From: a virus | Length of the DNA: 25,512 nucleotides | Virus record (IMG/VR): IMGVR_UViG_3300020152_000054 | Span: 1 to 25,512 of that record | Direction: 5' to 3' (one strand) | The notes under the pieces: model-generated | The model's input: only the letters and a program-made list of their open reading frames with translations | Databases searched by the model: none | What the model was told of the DNA's origin: nothing | Position numbers and translations under genes: made by a program | Shown: positions 16,419 to 22,034 of the stretch, piece after piece | How the letters are laid out: each line of letters starts with the position of its first letter | Numbering within the stretch: position 1 is the stretch's first letter

Positions 16419-18016
16419 CCGCCGCCGCGCTCGCCGCCCACGGCCTGCCGAAGGGCGGGCCGGCCGACCAGCTCGACGGCCTAGCCCGTGTCGAGCTGCT
16501 GCTCGGCTACCAGCAGCAGCTCCTGCACACGGCATCCCAGCACGCGCTGCTGGTGGCGGAGAAGTCCCGCCGCATCGGCTACACCTGGGCCGCCGCCGCG
16601 CTGGCGGTGCTGACGGCCGGCGCCGAGAAGAAGGCCGGCGGCATGGATGCCCTGTACCTCGGCCCGTCGCTCGACATGGCGCGCGAGTTCATCGACACCT
16701 GCGCCCAGTGGGCGCGGCTGTTCGGGCAGGCGTGCGAGGCCGTCGGCGAGGTGGAGCTGTTCGACGACGACGCGGACAAGGCGATCAAGGCGTACCGCAT
16801 CACCTTCGCCTCGGGCTTCGAGATCCTGGCGCTCACCAGCCGCCCGCGCTCGCTGCGCGGCCGGCAGGGGCTGGTGATCATCGACGAGGCTGCCTTCCAC
16901 GACGACCTGGACGAAGTGCTGAAGGCGGCGCTGGCGCTGCTGATGTGGGGCGGCAAGGTGCTGGTCATCAGCACCCACGACGGCGACCAGAACCCGTTCA
17001 ACCTGCTGATCCAGGACATCCACGCGGGCAAGCGCGGCGGCGGCGTGATCCGGGTGACGATCGAGGACGCGCTGCGCGACGGCCTGTACCGGCGCATCTG
17101 CTTCGTCACCGGCAAGGAGTGGACGCCGGAGGGCGAGGCCGCCTGGCTGAAGTCCATCCTCGACGCCTACGGCGACGCCGCGAAGGAGGAGCTGTACTGC
17201 ATCCCGCGCGCCGGCGGCGGCCGGTGGCTGCCGCGCTCGGCCTTCGAGGCGTGCGGCAGCCGCAGCGTTCCGGTGCTGCGCTGGACGGCGCCGGAGAACT
17301 ACCTGGCCGAGCCCGACCACCTCCGCGCCGCCGACATGGCGGATTGGTGCGAGCAGCACCTGAAGCCGCTGCTGACGGCCCTGGACCGCAACCTGCTGTC
17401 CGCCTTCGGCATGGACTACGCCATGGAGAGCGACCTGTCGGTGATCTGGGTCGGGCAGGTGCTGCCGGACCTGACCCGCCGCACCGCCTTCGTGGTCGAG
17501 CTGCGCCAGTGCCCCTTCGACCAGCAGCGCCAGATCGTCAACCACGTGCTCGACCGGCTGCCGCGCTGGCAGAAGGCGGTGCTCGACGCCGGCGGCAACG
17601 GCGCCGCGCTCGCCCAGGTCACGCAGACCAAGTTCGGCGTGGAACGGGTCGAGGCGCTGAAGCTCTCCCTCGACTGGTACCGGCTCAACATGCCGAAGGT
17701 GAAGAGCGCCATCGAGGGGCAGAGCTTCGTCCTCCCGGCCGACGCCGACGTCGTCGCCGATTTCTGCCTGGTGCAGCTGGAGGGCGGCGTCGCCAAGGTG
17801 CCGCACAACGCCCACACCAGGGGCACGGACGGCAAGCCCCGGCACGGCGACGCGGCCATCGCGGCGGCGCTCTTCTACTACGCCAGCCTGGCCGACGAGG
17901 AGCGGTACGAGTACCAGCCCGCCGGCGTGCCGCGCCACGACGGCGCCGGCGCCGATCCGGCCTACGCCCACGACGACGATGACGACGCGCGCCGCTTCGG
18001 CGCCGGAGGATGGTGA
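16415..18016 (+). CDS. Large terminase subunit (Mu gp28-like)
   Basis: A 533-aa packaging motor. The N-terminal ATPase has a Walker A-like KSRRIGYT (50-57), as in Mu gp28-type terminases, and Walker B LVIIDEAA (153-160), followed by VLVISTHDG, a coupling motif. The C-terminal RNase H-like nuclease has its first acidic residue at D334 (GMDYAMESDLS), then DAGGNGAAL and a last Asp at D479 (RHGDAAIA). It cuts and pumps DNA into the prohead. The stop shares one base with the next start (TGATG). Confidence 0.95.
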   Translation: MTAAALAAHGLPKGGPADQLDGLARVELLLGYQQQLLHTASQHALLVAEKSRRIGYTWAAAALAVLTAGAEKKAGGMDALYLGPSLDMAREFIDTCAQWARLFGQACEAVGEVELFDDDADKAIKAYRITFASGFEILALTSRPRSLRGRQGLVIIDEAAFHDDLDEVLKAALALLMWGGKVLVISTHDGDQNPFNLLIQDIHAGKRGGGVIRVTIEDALRDGLYRRICFVTGKEWTPEGEAAWLKSILDAYGDAAKEELYCIPRAGGGRWLPRSAFEACGSRSVPVLRWTAPENYLAEPDHLRAADMADWCEQHLKPLLTALDRNLLSAFGMDYAMESDLSVIWVGQVLPDLTRRTAFVVELRQCPFDQQRQIVNHVLDRLPRWQKAVLDAGGNGAALAQVTQTKFGVERVEALKLSLDWYRLNMPKVKSAIEGQSFVLPADADVVADFCLVQLEGGVAKVPHNAHTRGTDGKPRHGDAAIAAALFYYASLADEERYEYQPAGVPRHDGAGADPAYAHDDDDDARRFGAGGW

Positions 18017-18210
18017 TGGACCTTGCGAAGCTTCTGGCCACTTGGCGGCGCGGCCTGCTCCAGCGCCTGTCCGACAACCACCCGCTGATCGGCTTCGAGG
18101 GGATCGCCTTCGCCATCGCCGCCGTGCTGGCACTCGCCGTGGCCGTACTGTGGGATGCGGTGCTGTTTCCGGTGAAGCTGGCCCGGCGCTGCCGGAAGGC
18201 TGGTCGCTAA
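18016..18210 (+). CDS. Small single-helix membrane protein between terminase and portal
   Basis: A 64-aa protein MDLAKLLATWRRGLLQRLSD... with one hydrophobic segment (residues ~28-50, GIAFAIAAVLALAVAVLWDA) and a basic tail (KLARRCRKAGR). GGAGG six bases before ATG 18016. No family recognised; it is coupled to both neighbours by stop/start overlaps. A membrane protein in this place is unusual for Mu-like head modules. Confidence 0.6.
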   Translation: MDLAKLLATWRRGLLQRLSDNHPLIGFEGIAFAIAAVLALAVAVLWDAVLFPVKLARRCRKAGR

Positions 18211-19805
18211 TGCCCGCGATCCGCACGACCTCCCCGATCCTCGACCCGGTGACCGGCAAGCCGATCGAGCGCACCATCCTGACCGAGGAGATCTCCGGCC
18301 CGACGCTCACCGGTGTCCGCCAGATCTTCGCCGAGCACCCGTCGGAAGGGCTCACCCCCCGCCGCCTCGGCGGCATCCTGCGCGAGGCCGAGCAGGGCGC
18401 GGCCGACGCCTACCTGGCGCTGGCCGAGGACGTGGAGGAGAAGTTCATCCACTACCGCTCGGTGCTCGGCACCCGGCGCTTGGCCGTGTCGCAGCTGCCG
18501 ATCACCGTGGAGGCGGCCAGCGACGACGCGCTGGACGTCCAGGCCGCCGACCTGGTGCGCGAGGTGCTGAACGGCGACGAGGTGGACAGCGTCCTCTTCG
18601 ATATCCTGGACGGCCTGGGCAAGGGCTTCAGCGTGTCGGAGATCGTCTGGGAGACCTCGGCCCGCGACTGGCGGCCGGCGCGCGTCGAATGGCGCGACCC
18701 GCGCTGGTTCCAGTTCGACCGGATCGACGGCCGCACCCTGCGGCTGAAGGACGCCGGCCATCCCCAGGGGCGCGACCTGGAGCCGTTCAAGTACATCGTG
18801 CACCGGCCGAAGACCAAGTCGGGCCTGCCCATCCGCGGCGGCCTGGCGCGGCCGGCCTGCTGGGCGTGGATCTTCACCAGCTTCGGCACCAAGGACTGGC
18901 TGTCCTTCATCGAGACCTACGGCCAGCCGATCCGCGTGGGCCGCTACGGCCCCGGCGCGTCGAAGGAGGACATCGCCACGCTGATGCGGGCGGTGCGCAA
19001 TATCGCCGCCGACGCCGCCGCCGTGATCCCCCAGTCGATGGGGCTGGAGTTCATCCGCGCCGAGGGCGCGTCGGCGAACGCCGACATGTTCAAGCAGCTG
19101 CTGGAGTTCTTCGAGCGCCAGACCTCCAAGCTGGTGCTGGGTCAGACCACCACCACCGACGCCGTGTCCGGCGGCCACGCCGTGTCCCAGGAGCACCGCC
19201 AGGTGCAGGAGGACATCGAACGCGCCGACGGCCGCCAGCTCGCCGCCACGCTGCGCCGCGACCTCGCCGAACCGGTGGTGCGGCTGAACCTCGGCCCCAC
19301 TGCCCGCTCCCCCATCATCCGCATCGGCCGGCCGAAGGCGACCGACCTGAAGGTGTTGGTCGAAGCCGTCGCCAAGCTCGGCCCCCAGGGCCTGCGCGTC
19401 AGCGCCAGCGAGCTGCGCGACAAGCTGGGCTTCTCCGATCCGGACAAGGACGAGGAAGTGATCGGCGGCCAAGCCGCTCCCGCGACGGATGGTCTGACGA
19501 AGGACGGCCCACCGGCGACGGCCGGCGCCAAGGCGCTGGCGGCCGAGCAGGCGGCCGGCCCCGACGAAATGGACCGTCTGGTCGACTCCATGTTGGCCGA
19601 CTTCGCCGAGCTGACGGTGCCGGCGGTGGAGGCGGTGATCGCGGCGGCCAAGGACGCCACCGGGCCGGAGGACTTCCTCGCCCGTCTGGCCGGTCTCGCC
19701 GGCAGCCAGGACATGGCGGCGCTCCAGCAGGCCCTGGCGCAGGGCCAGTTCATGGGCCGCATCGCGGCGCGGGTGGGTGCGGCGGGAACAGGCAATGCCT
19801 CATGA
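18210..19805 (+). CDS. Portal protein, DUF935 (Mu gp29-like)
   Basis: A 531-aa protein of the Mu gp29 / DUF935 portal family. Family-like stretches: GILREAEQGAADAYLALAED, FIHYRSVLGTRRLAVSQLPI, GLGKGFSVSEIVWE, ACWAWIFTSFGTKDWLSFIE, YGQPIRVGRYGPGAS, and KLVLGQTTTTDAVSGGHAVS. The portal is the ring at the unique capsid vertex through which DNA enters. The last ~110 residues, Ala-rich and acidic, extend the family core. The start overlaps the previous stop (TAATG). Confidence 0.95.
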   Translation: MPAIRTTSPILDPVTGKPIERTILTEEISGPTLTGVRQIFAEHPSEGLTPRRLGGILREAEQGAADAYLALAEDVEEKFIHYRSVLGTRRLAVSQLPITVEAASDDALDVQAADLVREVLNGDEVDSVLFDILDGLGKGFSVSEIVWETSARDWRPARVEWRDPRWFQFDRIDGRTLRLKDAGHPQGRDLEPFKYIVHRPKTKSGLPIRGGLARPACWAWIFTSFGTKDWLSFIETYGQPIRVGRYGPGASKEDIATLMRAVRNIAADAAAVIPQSMGLEFIRAEGASANADMFKQLLEFFERQTSKLVLGQTTTTDAVSGGHAVSQEHRQVQEDIERADGRQLAATLRRDLAEPVVRLNLGPTARSPIIRIGRPKATDLKVLVEAVAKLGPQGLRVSASELRDKLGFSDPDKDEEVIGGQAAPATDGLTKDGPPATAGAKALAAEQAAGPDEMDRLVDSMLADFAELTVPAVEAVIAAAKDATGPEDFLARLAGLAGSQDMAALQQALAQGQFMGRIAARVGAAGTGNAS

Positions 19806-20841
19806 CATGGCTGTACGTCCCGCCCCACCTCTGCGAGGGCTTGCCCTGTGCGCCGGCGCCGGCGGGCTCGAACTGGCCCTCCACATCGCTGTGCCCGGCT
19901 ATCGCACTGTGTGTTACGTCGAGCGCGAAGCCTATGCTGCGGCCGCTCTCGTGGCGCGGATGGAAGATGCGTCCCTGGATCCGGCTCCTGTCTGGGACGA
20001 TCTTGCCACCTTCGACGGCCGACGCTGGCGTGGAGCGGTGGATATCGTCTCTGCGGGATATCCCTGCCAGCCCTTCAGCCAAGCCGGCCGGCGCCTCGGC
20101 ACCGCCGACCCGCGGCATCTGTGGCCCCACGTCCGGCGCATCATCGTCCAGTCCCGTCCTCGGCTCGTCTTCCTCGAAAACGTGCCCGCCCATCTCACGC
20201 TGGGGTATCCCCTCGTGCGCGGCCAACTACAAGCACTGGGTTTCCGAGTTGCGCAAGGGCTCTACAGCGCGGAGGAAGTCGGCGCGAGCCAGCGCCGCGA
20301 GCGCCTGTTCATCCTGGCCCACTGCGACGGCAATCTGCGGCAACGGCAACGACTACACGCGGGACCGCGGGATGAAGGGCAGCGAGCGCCTTTCGTTGGC
20401 GGGCATGGCGCGGTATTGGCCAACGGCGGAGGCGGCGAACGCCAAGTCGGGAGCCCAGATCAGGGACGGGCGGCGTGGCCTGTCCCTGGTGACGGTGTCG
20501 AAGCTCTGGCCGGCCGCTCTGGAACGGGACTGGAAGGCGCCGCCGCTGACGCCGACTGCGCAGCGCCGCACCGATGCCCCGAAGGCCGGGGACCATCTGG
20601 CGAGCTTCGCGGTGCACTCCTGGCCGGGGGAGGACTGCCTCTCTTCCCTCCTGGACCTTCTGACCACGGTGCCTGGGTGGACATCCTCCGCCGAGACCCG
20701 TCGCTTGTCCCCGCGGTTCGTAGAGCATTTGCAGGGGTGGCCCATCGGGTGGACCGACTGCGGCTCGGCGGTAACGGGGTTTGCTCTCTGGCTGGCGCGC
20801 GCGCGTTCTGCGCTCTGGCTGCTGAACTCGGCATCGGCTGA
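19795..20841 (+). CDS. Cytosine-5 DNA methyltransferase
   Basis: A 348-aa enzyme with the C5-methyltransferase motifs in order: I, LCAGAGGLELAL (18-29); II, VCYVERE; IV, GYPCQPFSQAG with catalytic C91; VI, FLENV (126-130); VIII, QRRERLF (166-172); X, LRLGGNGV (322-329). Residues ~175-290 are the target-recognition region, Gly/Ala-rich and poorly conserved. Start 19795 is chosen for the GGGA upstream; ATG 19807 is possible. It overlaps the portal gene end. No cognate endonuclease is seen, so it is an orphan phage enzyme, probably anti-restriction. From about 20372 the same DNA also carries a good +1 frame. Confidence 0.9.
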   Translation: MPHDMAVRPAPPLRGLALCAGAGGLELALHIAVPGYRTVCYVEREAYAAAALVARMEDASLDPAPVWDDLATFDGRRWRGAVDIVSAGYPCQPFSQAGRRLGTADPRHLWPHVRRIIVQSRPRLVFLENVPAHLTLGYPLVRGQLQALGFRVAQGLYSAEEVGASQRRERLFILAHCDGNLRQRQRLHAGPRDEGQRAPFVGGHGAVLANGGGGERQVGSPDQGRAAWPVPGDGVEALAGRSGTGLEGAAADADCAAPHRCPEGRGPSGELRGALLAGGGLPLFPPGPSDHGAWVDILRRDPSLVPAVRRAFAGVAHRVDRLRLGGNGVCSLAGARAFCALAAELGIG

Positions 20842-20854
20842 GGTCCATGGCTGA
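20372..20854 (+). CDS. Overlapping +1-frame ORF inside the C5-methyltransferase gene
   Basis: A 160-aa frame starting MKGSERLSLAGMARYWPTAE. It overlaps the methyltransferase in another reading frame and ends 13 bases after it. Its codons end in G or C more often than those of the methyltransferase frame over the same DNA. The product has W-P-T-A and RDWKAP elements and ends LSPRFVEHLQGWPIGWTDCG with a VTGFALWLARARSALW helix; L-x-P-R-F-V-E-x-L-x-G-W-P-x-G-W-T-D is a phrase I know from the C-termini of phage-type cytosine methyltransferases. Either two proteins are made from one DNA stretch, or a frameshift can join the upstream catalytic part to this tail. The start codon is uncertain. Confidence 0.5.
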   Translation: MKGSERLSLAGMARYWPTAEAANAKSGAQIRDGRRGLSLVTVSKLWPAALERDWKAPPLTPTAQRRTDAPKAGDHLASFAVHSWPGEDCLSSLLDLLTTVPGWTSSAETRRLSPRFVEHLQGWPIGWTDCGSAVTGFALWLARARSALWLLNSASAEVHG

Positions 20855-22034
20855 TCTCACCCCGCTGCCGCCCGAGCAGGCCATCCGGTTCCTGGAGGGC
20901 AAGGGCTACCGCGTCGGCTTCGCCTGGCAGGACGTCTGGCACGAGGAGCACGCGCTCTCCTTCACCATCGCCAAGATGGCCGAGTTCGACCTGCTCCAGG
21001 ACACTCACGCCTCGCTGGTCAAGGCGCTGAAGGAGGGGCAGTCCTACGAGCAGTGGGCGGCGGACATCGAGGGCGTGCTCAAAACGCGCGGCTGGTGGGG
21101 CCGGTCGGCCATGACCGACCCGCGCGACGGCGTGACGAAGATCGTCCAGCTCGGCAGCGAGCGCCGGCTGCGCATCATCTTCGACACCAACGTCCGCATG
21201 TCGATGGCGGCCGGCCAGTGGGAGCGGATCCGGCGTCTGGCGCCGGCGCGGCCGTACCTGCGCTACGTCGCGGTGCAGGACGCCAAGGTCCGGCCGGAGC
21301 ACCTGGCGTGGCACGGAACCGTGCTGCCCTGGGACCATCCCTGGTGGGAGACGCACAGCCCGCCGTGCGGCTGGCGCTGCCGCTGCACGCTCCAGCAGCT
21401 CTCGGCCAAGGACCTGGAGCGCAACAACCTCCAGGTCACCGAGGAACCGCCCCCCGACGATCCGCGCCCGTGGCTGAACAAGCGCACCGGCGAGGTGTCG
21501 ATGGTGCCGGCCGGCGTCGATCCCGGCTTCGCCTACCACAAGGGCCAGCGGTCGAGCGCCCAGCGCCGCGACCAGGCAATCGAGCGGCTGGAGGGCACTG
21601 AGCCGGCGATCGCCCGCCAAGCCGTCGACTCCATGGTCGCGGCACCCGAGTTCGCCGACTTCGCCACCGGCCGCTGGCCGGGCAGCACCCCAGTCGCCAT
21701 CCTGGAGCGCGCGCTGGGGCAGCGCATCGGCGCCACCGCGCAGGTGGTGCGCCTGTCGCAGGACACGCTGCTGAAGCAGCGGCGCGAGCACCCGGAGATC
21801 GAGGCGGCCGAATACGCGCTGGTGCAGGCCGCGCTCGACCGCGGCACCGTGATCCAGGACGGCGTCACCTCCCTGGTCTTCGTCCGCCAGGGGCGCACCT
21901 TGTGGCATGCCGTGGTGAAGGCGACCCGTTCCGGCCGCGCTCTGTTCCTCACGTCCTTCCGCCGCACCACGCGCGCCGACCTGAGGCGCGCCATGAAGCG
22001 CGGCACGGTGGTGCGGGACGGCGGCGATGAATGA
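20847..22034 (+). CDS. F: Head morphogenesis protein F (Mu gp30-like)
   Basis: A 395-aa minor head protein. N-terminal PLPPEQAIRFLEGKGYRVGF and FDLLQDTHASLVKALKEGQS are typical of Mu F; the Phage_Mu_F core (about 100-185) contains RRLRIIFDTNVRMSMAAGQW, YLRYVAVQDAKVRPEH and the Cys motif PPCGWRCRCTLQQL. Residues ~280-390 form an extra C-terminal domain (ATAQVVRLSQDTLLKQRREH ... ALFLTSFRRTT) that resembles the phage-barnase-EndoU-ColicinE5/D-like nuclease/BACON-type extensions on some F proteins; that match is weak. F is needed for prohead assembly. Its start overlaps the end of the +1-frame ORF. Confidence 0.92.
   Translation: MADLTPLPPEQAIRFLEGKGYRVGFAWQDVWHEEHALSFTIAKMAEFDLLQDTHASLVKALKEGQSYEQWAADIEGVLKTRGWWGRSAMTDPRDGVTKIVQLGSERRLRIIFDTNVRMSMAAGQWERIRRLAPARPYLRYVAVQDAKVRPEHLAWHGTVLPWDHPWWETHSPPCGWRCRCTLQQLSAKDLERNNLQVTEEPPPDDPRPWLNKRTGEVSMVPAGVDPGFAYHKGQRSSAQRRDQAIERLEGTEPAIARQAVDSMVAAPEFADFATGRWPGSTPVAILERALGQRIGATAQVVRLSQDTLLKQRREHPEIEAAEYALVQAALDRGTVIQDGVTSLVFVRQGRTLWHAVVKATRSGRALFLTSFRRTTRADLRRAMKRGTVVRDGGDE

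Follow-up and report, generated by a model that had tools for sequence, protein, structure and literature searches.

How can two reading frames over the same bases of a phage cytosine methyltransferase gene both appear to be protein-coding? The question was raised by an earlier note on a stretch of viral DNA (IMG/VR virus record IMGVR_UViG_3300020152_000054, positions 1–25,512; the 25,512 nt analysed here are referred to as the window), which described two coding-like frames in the 3′ half of the gene, over 20372–20854, and suggested either overprinting or a programmed or historical frameshift by which one C-terminus would be exchanged for a different one. Both frames are indeed open over this interval. 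The genes of the window form a Mu-like head region that comprises the terminase small and large subunits, portal, minor head protein, and head protease, and the methyltransferase gene is located between a Mu-like portal gene (17979–19805; PHROG_113 portal protein, E = 1.6e-139) and a Mu F-like minor head gene (20847–22034; PHROG_220 minor head protein, E = 3.6e-89). These and all other features of the window described here are on the plus strand.

The methyltransferase frame encodes the large subunit of a C5-cytosine methyltransferase (alpha; 348 aa from ATG 19795; 19795–20841), which matches Pfam PF00145 (DNA_methylase; E = 3.7e-26, residues 22–182 of the longer ORF) and PHROG_363, the latter over almost its entire length. 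As described previously, this frame remains open to a motif X with the sequence LRLGGNGV. The second frame is also real, but its extent had been set too small: the +1-frame ORF (beta; 350 aa; 19802–20854) begins at ATG 19802, ends with the stop codon at 20852–20854, and spans essentially the whole methyltransferase gene. The start of beta overlaps the TGA stop of the portal gene (19803–19805) as ATGA, and its 3′ end overlaps the ATG of the minor head gene (20847), so that both junctions are tight, as is typical of phage genes. The G/C third-position bias ascribed to the +1 frame is present as well. Over 20335–20690, alpha codon positions 1/2/3 have a G+C content of.88/.64/.60, which makes the wobble position of the +1 frame the richest; the neighboring genes have values of.73/.52/.89 and.71/.50/.95.

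Within the window alone, the openness of the two frames is moderately significant (P = 0.014 for the +1 frame given the alpha protein and codon use; P = 0.002 for alpha given beta). Relatives were obtained by searching viral contigs, phage records, and bacterial genomes with the beta tail, with alpha, and with a beta profile. Both parts were mapped in 233 of 240 loci, and beta was in the +1 frame relative to alpha in all 233; neither an in-frame fusion of alpha and beta nor a +2 arrangement was present among them. Neither a fusion of this kind nor a stand-alone beta was found in the 240 loci, and the five in which only beta was recovered are situated at contig edges or interrupted by insertions. 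The overlap between alpha and beta has a median length of 283 codons (91 non-redundant loci).

The evidence for conservation of the overlap is overwhelming in 96 non-redundant loci (<80% identity in alpha), in which the avoidance of stop codons was compared with expectations derived from synonymous-codon shuffles. With the alpha codons shuffled, the beta frame had 9 stops in the catalytic region versus 205.1 expected and was open over this region in 92 of the 96 loci (14.6 expected), while the control +2 frame had 502 stops versus 523.9 expected. With the beta codons shuffled, the alpha frame had 5 stops in the middle region versus 150.0 expected and none at the 3′ end versus 104.6 expected; the third frame, again used as a control, had 324 versus 293.5 and 206 versus 190.3, respectively. 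Avoidance of +1 stops was absent from four ordinary single-frame C5-MTases, including Dcm of E. coli (44 versus 50.8). The G+C content of the catalytic region ranges from 44 to 71% among the loci, which behave alike across this range. Homologs of one frame that are always interrupted and evolve freely, which the earlier note had named as evidence against dual coding, were not encountered; alpha remains open beyond motif IX of beta in 222 of the 233 loci. That the same bases code in two frames is strongly supported. In the window, the +2 forward frame is also free of stops over 19831–20334 (0 versus 2.5 expected), which is probably due to chance because the relatives show no +2 stop avoidance.

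Selection acts on both frames, and the constraint is specific to the region. Based on independent close pairs, the dN/dS-like ratios of alpha and beta are 0.25 and 1.38 in the catalytic region (57 pairs), 2.11 and 0.26 in the middle region (11 pairs), and 0.54 and 0.55 at the 3′ end (53 pairs), and raw substitution rates by codon position agree with these values. Each of the two frames is thus constrained somewhere. The frames form a relay, in which alpha is constrained first, beta next, and both at the end; elsewhere, a frame is open but its residues hardly matter. Such a relay with open filler is expected from two full-length proteins that each cross the filler to reach their second part. 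Over the catalytic region, the amino acid conservation of beta is barely above that of the shuffles and close to that of the control frame, and was therefore excluded as evidence; the constraint on beta in this region is local and concerns its start and the stretch over motifs VI–VIII.

Alpha carries motifs I–VIII and X. Motifs I, IV (PCQ), VI (ENV), and VIII of the catalytic domain are present, with C91, Q92, E128, N129, R168, and R170 invariant in alignment A5; the region of motifs I–VIII (19831–20322) is the one in which the beta frame is open with little amino acid constraint. In motif X (HRVDRLRLGGNGV; 20743–20781), D320, G326, and G328 are invariant in the same alignment, and the GNG is invariant or nearly so. 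The AF2 model of alpha is confident for residues 13–188 and for the helix of motif X (residues 331–345; pLDDT ~96). Its alignment to M.HhaI covers 192 of the 327 residues of that enzyme (Z = 22.2, 2.2 Å; VIA-align) and extends to residue 323 of M.HhaI, with motif X packed in the large domain. According to this model, alpha is an M.HhaI-like large catalytic domain plus motif X. A small domain with a TRD and motif IX is absent from the same chain, as residues 193–276 are disordered (pLDDT <50 in the AF2 model), the dN/dS-like ratio of alpha in the middle region is 2.11, and motif IX is located in the beta frame.

The missing part is apparently encoded by beta. Its variable, TRD-like region (20335–20704), which coincides with the disordered linker of alpha, contains WPTATA in the window and WPTP-type units among the relatives, where repeated WPTPTA.D units are followed by LNPxFVEWLMGWPIGWTDC. 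By pattern and position, this tail very probably represents motif IX. In the window, it reads LSPRFVEHLQGWPIGWTDC (20705–20761), shares the bases of its end with motif X of alpha, and resembles motif IX of Dcm (LTPRECARLMGF) and of a Rhizobium MTase in a pattern match; it includes nearly invariant positions in the alignment of beta (A4). Profile searches yielded no significant support for motif IX in beta, so that the assignment is strongly indicated rather than proven. Beta, whose tail the earlier note associated with other phage cytosine methyltransferases, matches PHROG_1008, annotated as DNA methyltransferase (E = 2.8e-14), and PHROG_27243 (E = 1.7e-8). Searches against Pfam and NCBIfam gave no match for beta, and comparison of the beta profile with solved structures returned only chance matches; little can be read from the AF2 model of beta (pLDDT 52). 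The term overprinting is appropriate in that both frames code, but not in its classic sense of a novel protein, because what the +1 frame appears to encode is the portion of this enzyme that alpha lacks, namely its recognition region and motif IX. Beta may serve as the specificity subunit.

The starts of the two frames are closely paired. In the window, ATG 19795 (alpha), ATG 19802 (beta), and ATG 19807 (alternative start of alpha) fall within 15 nt (19795–19809). Starts for both frames were available in 87 relatives, and in 78 of these the closest starts of alpha and beta are 2, 4, or 5 nt apart; the spacing from alpha to beta is +4 in 55 (e.g., ATGAATGAGCTGG), −5 in 13, and −2 in 10 (ATGTGG). 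A Shine-Dalgarno-like tetramer is located just upstream in 70 of the 87 by a loose criterion, and the M[ST]W at the start of beta is conserved. Experiments with E. coli have documented that AUGUG and GUGUG sites can initiate both overlapping frames, depending on the Shine-Dalgarno spacing (PMC9841429). Together with the paired starts, this makes it likely that both subunits are produced in step by shared ambiguous initiation, with beta presumably translated from ATG 19802 in the window.

The most plausible explanation for the locus, to which we assign a probability of roughly 0.8, is a two-subunit C5-MTase similar to M.EcoHK31I that is encoded by fully overlapping genes on the same strand, probably with ambiguous initiation. 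Frame 0 would encode alpha, the large catalytic domain with motifs I–VIII and X, whereas frame +1 would encode beta, whose variable recognition region and motif IX would constitute the small domain. Neighboring starts 2–7 nt apart, probably served by a single ribosome-binding site, would initiate both proteins, and each would cross the region of the other as open, unconstrained filler. Together, alpha and beta would form an active methylase by which the DNA of the phage is modified and perhaps protected.

Alternative explanations differ in what they make of the +1 frame. That it is meaningless, a by-product of high G+C content and codon bias or the result of a frameshift in a pseudogene, has next to no probability. 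High-G+C genes do carry long spurious ORFs, and the window alone yields only P = 0.014, but loci of 44–71% G+C behave alike, the effect is seen neither in synonymous-shuffle controls nor in canonical MTases, and the dN/dS-like ratio of beta in the middle region is 0.26. Chance or a G+C artifact was rejected as a general explanation based on the synonymous shuffles with control frames, the canonical MTases, and the dN/dS-like ratios. It is also improbable that beta is an unrelated overprinted protein, such as a regulator or an anti-restriction factor, and not a methylase subunit. The absence of significant profile similarity to solved small domains of C5-MTases and of any match in Pfam or NCBIfam would be in agreement with such a protein. 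Against it, alpha lacks both motif IX and the small domain, a motif IX pattern is present in beta at the matching place, and the +1 frame of two actinophage loci (L074 and L075) has motifs IX and X in canonical order.

The remaining alternatives concern how beta is translated. In a programmed frameshift, ribosomes would start in alpha, and some would shift to +1 after motif VIII, yielding a fusion of catalytic domain, TRD, and motif IX beside plain alpha. Although the part of beta that is useful for an MTase starts directly after motif VIII, and alpha ends 4–7 codons past motif VIII in three loci (L007, L013, and L014) in which beta continues, such a fusion would lack motif X, and neither the recurrent pairing of starts nor a +1 frame that is open through the entire catalytic region, before any shift would occur (9 versus 205 stops), would be explained; we regard a programmed frameshift as quite improbable. 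As a present mechanism, a frameshift that swaps the C-termini is not supported. The unused stretches could gain stops, yet the +1 frame stays open ahead of every useful shift site and the methyltransferase frame stays open behind it, which is better explained by two full-length proteins with adjacent starts of their own than by two ends of a single protein. A historical frameshift may have given rise to the split. Somewhat less improbable, albeit still unlikely, is the translation of beta solely from an internal start, such as ATG 20372 (20372–20374), which would yield a short beta of 160 aa and leave the beta frame over the catalytic region untranslated in this phage. Paenibacillus phage Lily has an annotated internal +1 gene of 163 aa (LILY_63), the beta subunit of M.EcoHK31I is small (176 aa), the amino acids of beta are unconstrained in the catalytic region, and two plasmid-borne relatives (L245 and L246) have stops upstream only. 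However, an internal start does not account for a +1 frame that is open over the catalytic region in 92 of 96 loci (14.6 expected), for the conserved M[ST]W and the paired starts, or for the ATGA coupling to the portal gene. What does run counter to the favored explanation is that motif IX was assigned by pattern and position and not by a significant profile match, that the structure model of beta gives little information, that the +1 frame of some relatives (L076, L245, and L246) is closed close to the start of the gene, and that alpha of others (L007–L009, L013, L014, and the actinophages L074/L075) ends beyond motif VIII or short of its end.

Several of the relatives deviate in the extent of their frames. 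In L007, L008, L009, L013, and L014, alpha ends 4–7 codons past motif VIII, and beta is very long, with many WPTP units; in the alpha frame, another short ORF that starts near CGMGNAD retains a well-conserved motif X under beta, which makes these loci possible three-piece methyltransferases. In the actinophage loci (L074:1027–2566 and L075:1156–2482), alpha terminates past motif VIII or is disrupted before that point, and LPTP repeats are present in the +1 frame together with motif IX and a canonical motif X in one chain; the tail of L075 retrieved nothing relevant among solved structures. Each is annotated as two separate DNA methylase genes, and in Gordonia phage Upyo the annotated start of the second gene is probably too far downstream. 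Beta is shorter in L076, L245, and L246, in which the first part of the gene is not open in the +1 frame. In the relatives from Lily, Bacteroides, and Lacticaseibacillus, beta is open only from around codon 65, so that an internal start is likely used there. L245 and L246 are short plasmid-borne MTases of Bacteroides and Lacticaseibacillus (42–50% G+C) with motif IX in a +1 frame that is closed only near the gene start, which suggests a short-beta lineage. Two other loci contain homing-type inserts in the split gene: an HNH-like ORF between motif VIII and motifs IX/X with motif IX-like sequence on both sides (L225), and an interrupting ORF between motif VIII and the IX/X region (L220).

The same arrangement is present in phages and prophages of many bacteria and in plasmid-borne genes of Bacteroides, Lacticaseibacillus, Picosynechococcus, and Leptospira. 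On plasmid pAQ5 of Picosynechococcus PCC 7002 (L240:1327–2437), frame 0 has a motif X-like end, and the motif IX-like FSPEAMAMYMGFP is located in the open +1 frame. Most records annotate only one frame, which is alpha in E. coli, Salmonella phage S9-5, and the plasmids, and beta in Pseudomonas phage phPA-G, Synechococcus phage Ssp-JY39, and Acidovorax phage Alfacinha3. Among L069, L070, L072, and L076, the choice of the annotators differs, with beta alone in three cases (once as a cytosine-specific methyltransferase) and both frames in Lily.

It seems rather probable that these loci represent a large, unrecognized class of phage (and plasmid-borne) C5-MTase heterodimers encoded by two full-length overlapping genes with a single ambiguous initiation site, in which shared initiation would fix the ratio of the subunits and the middle of the recognition subunit could diverge with hardly any constraint imposed by the catalytic subunit. 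If so, most of the short phage cytosine methyltransferases in current annotations would be half enzymes. If beta is required for activity, many annotated phage cytosine methyltransferases would be incomplete, and their expression alone or the inference of their specificity would fail. To our knowledge, long same-strand overlaps with selection on both frames have rarely been documented in tailed phages; here, the overlap spans a whole gene and is shared by the phages and prophages of numerous bacteria. The relay of constraint from alpha to beta to both is a clean natural case of a split enzyme encoded by a single stretch of DNA, and the paired starts offer a biological setting in which ambiguous initiation can be tested.

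The open literature that was searched yielded no published account of this overlap in phages. Beta and its relatives match the phage families PHROG_1008, PHROG_27243, PHROG_26627, and PHROG_35493, which indicates that the beta frame is already annotated in some genomes; however, the entries are listed as DNA methyltransferase (PHROG_1008) or without function, and do not record that the protein overlaps with or completes an MTase. Overlapping frames inside a phage methylase gene are also known from the out-of-frame HNH insert (ShiLan) in phage methylases (PMC11855218). In that case, the insertion is mobile and has its own ORF, whereas the overlapping frame described here is probably a part of the enzyme and is common to all relatives. 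M.AquI is likewise a C5-MTase in two polypeptides that is split after motif VIII, with motifs IX and X both in its beta subunit (PMC3404938). By contrast, motif X remains in alpha and motif IX is in beta at the present locus, where an M.AquI-type combination of motifs IX and X was not found, and the genes overlap along their whole length.

Lee, Kam and Shaw reportedly described in 1995 that the gene of the large subunit of M.EcoHK31I also encodes the small one, in a different frame. At the present locus, beta is in the +1 frame of the alpha gene, as it is in 233 of 233 loci; the gene of M.EcoHK31I itself was not found in the collections for comparison, and the E. coli genomes contained only four prophage-type relatives of the pair from the Salmonella phage, annotated as single methyltransferases. 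M.EcoHK31I (YGGCCR) consists of a large polypeptide with motifs I–VIII and X, in which the predicted TRD was also placed, and a smaller, separate polypeptide with motif IX (PMC3404938). The pair described here resembles it in having motifs I–VIII and X in the large chain and, by pattern and position, motif IX in the second. It differs in that the constrained variable region is located in beta and not in the large subunit, that beta comprises 350 aa (versus 176 aa) and spans the whole alpha gene, and that the pair is situated among phage head genes. Because of the variable region in beta and the extension of beta over the whole gene, the locus is not classified as a plain member of the M.EcoHK31I type. 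Split C5-MTases are not new as such; what distinguishes the present ones, most of which are only half annotated, is the variable region in beta and a beta that extends over the whole gene.
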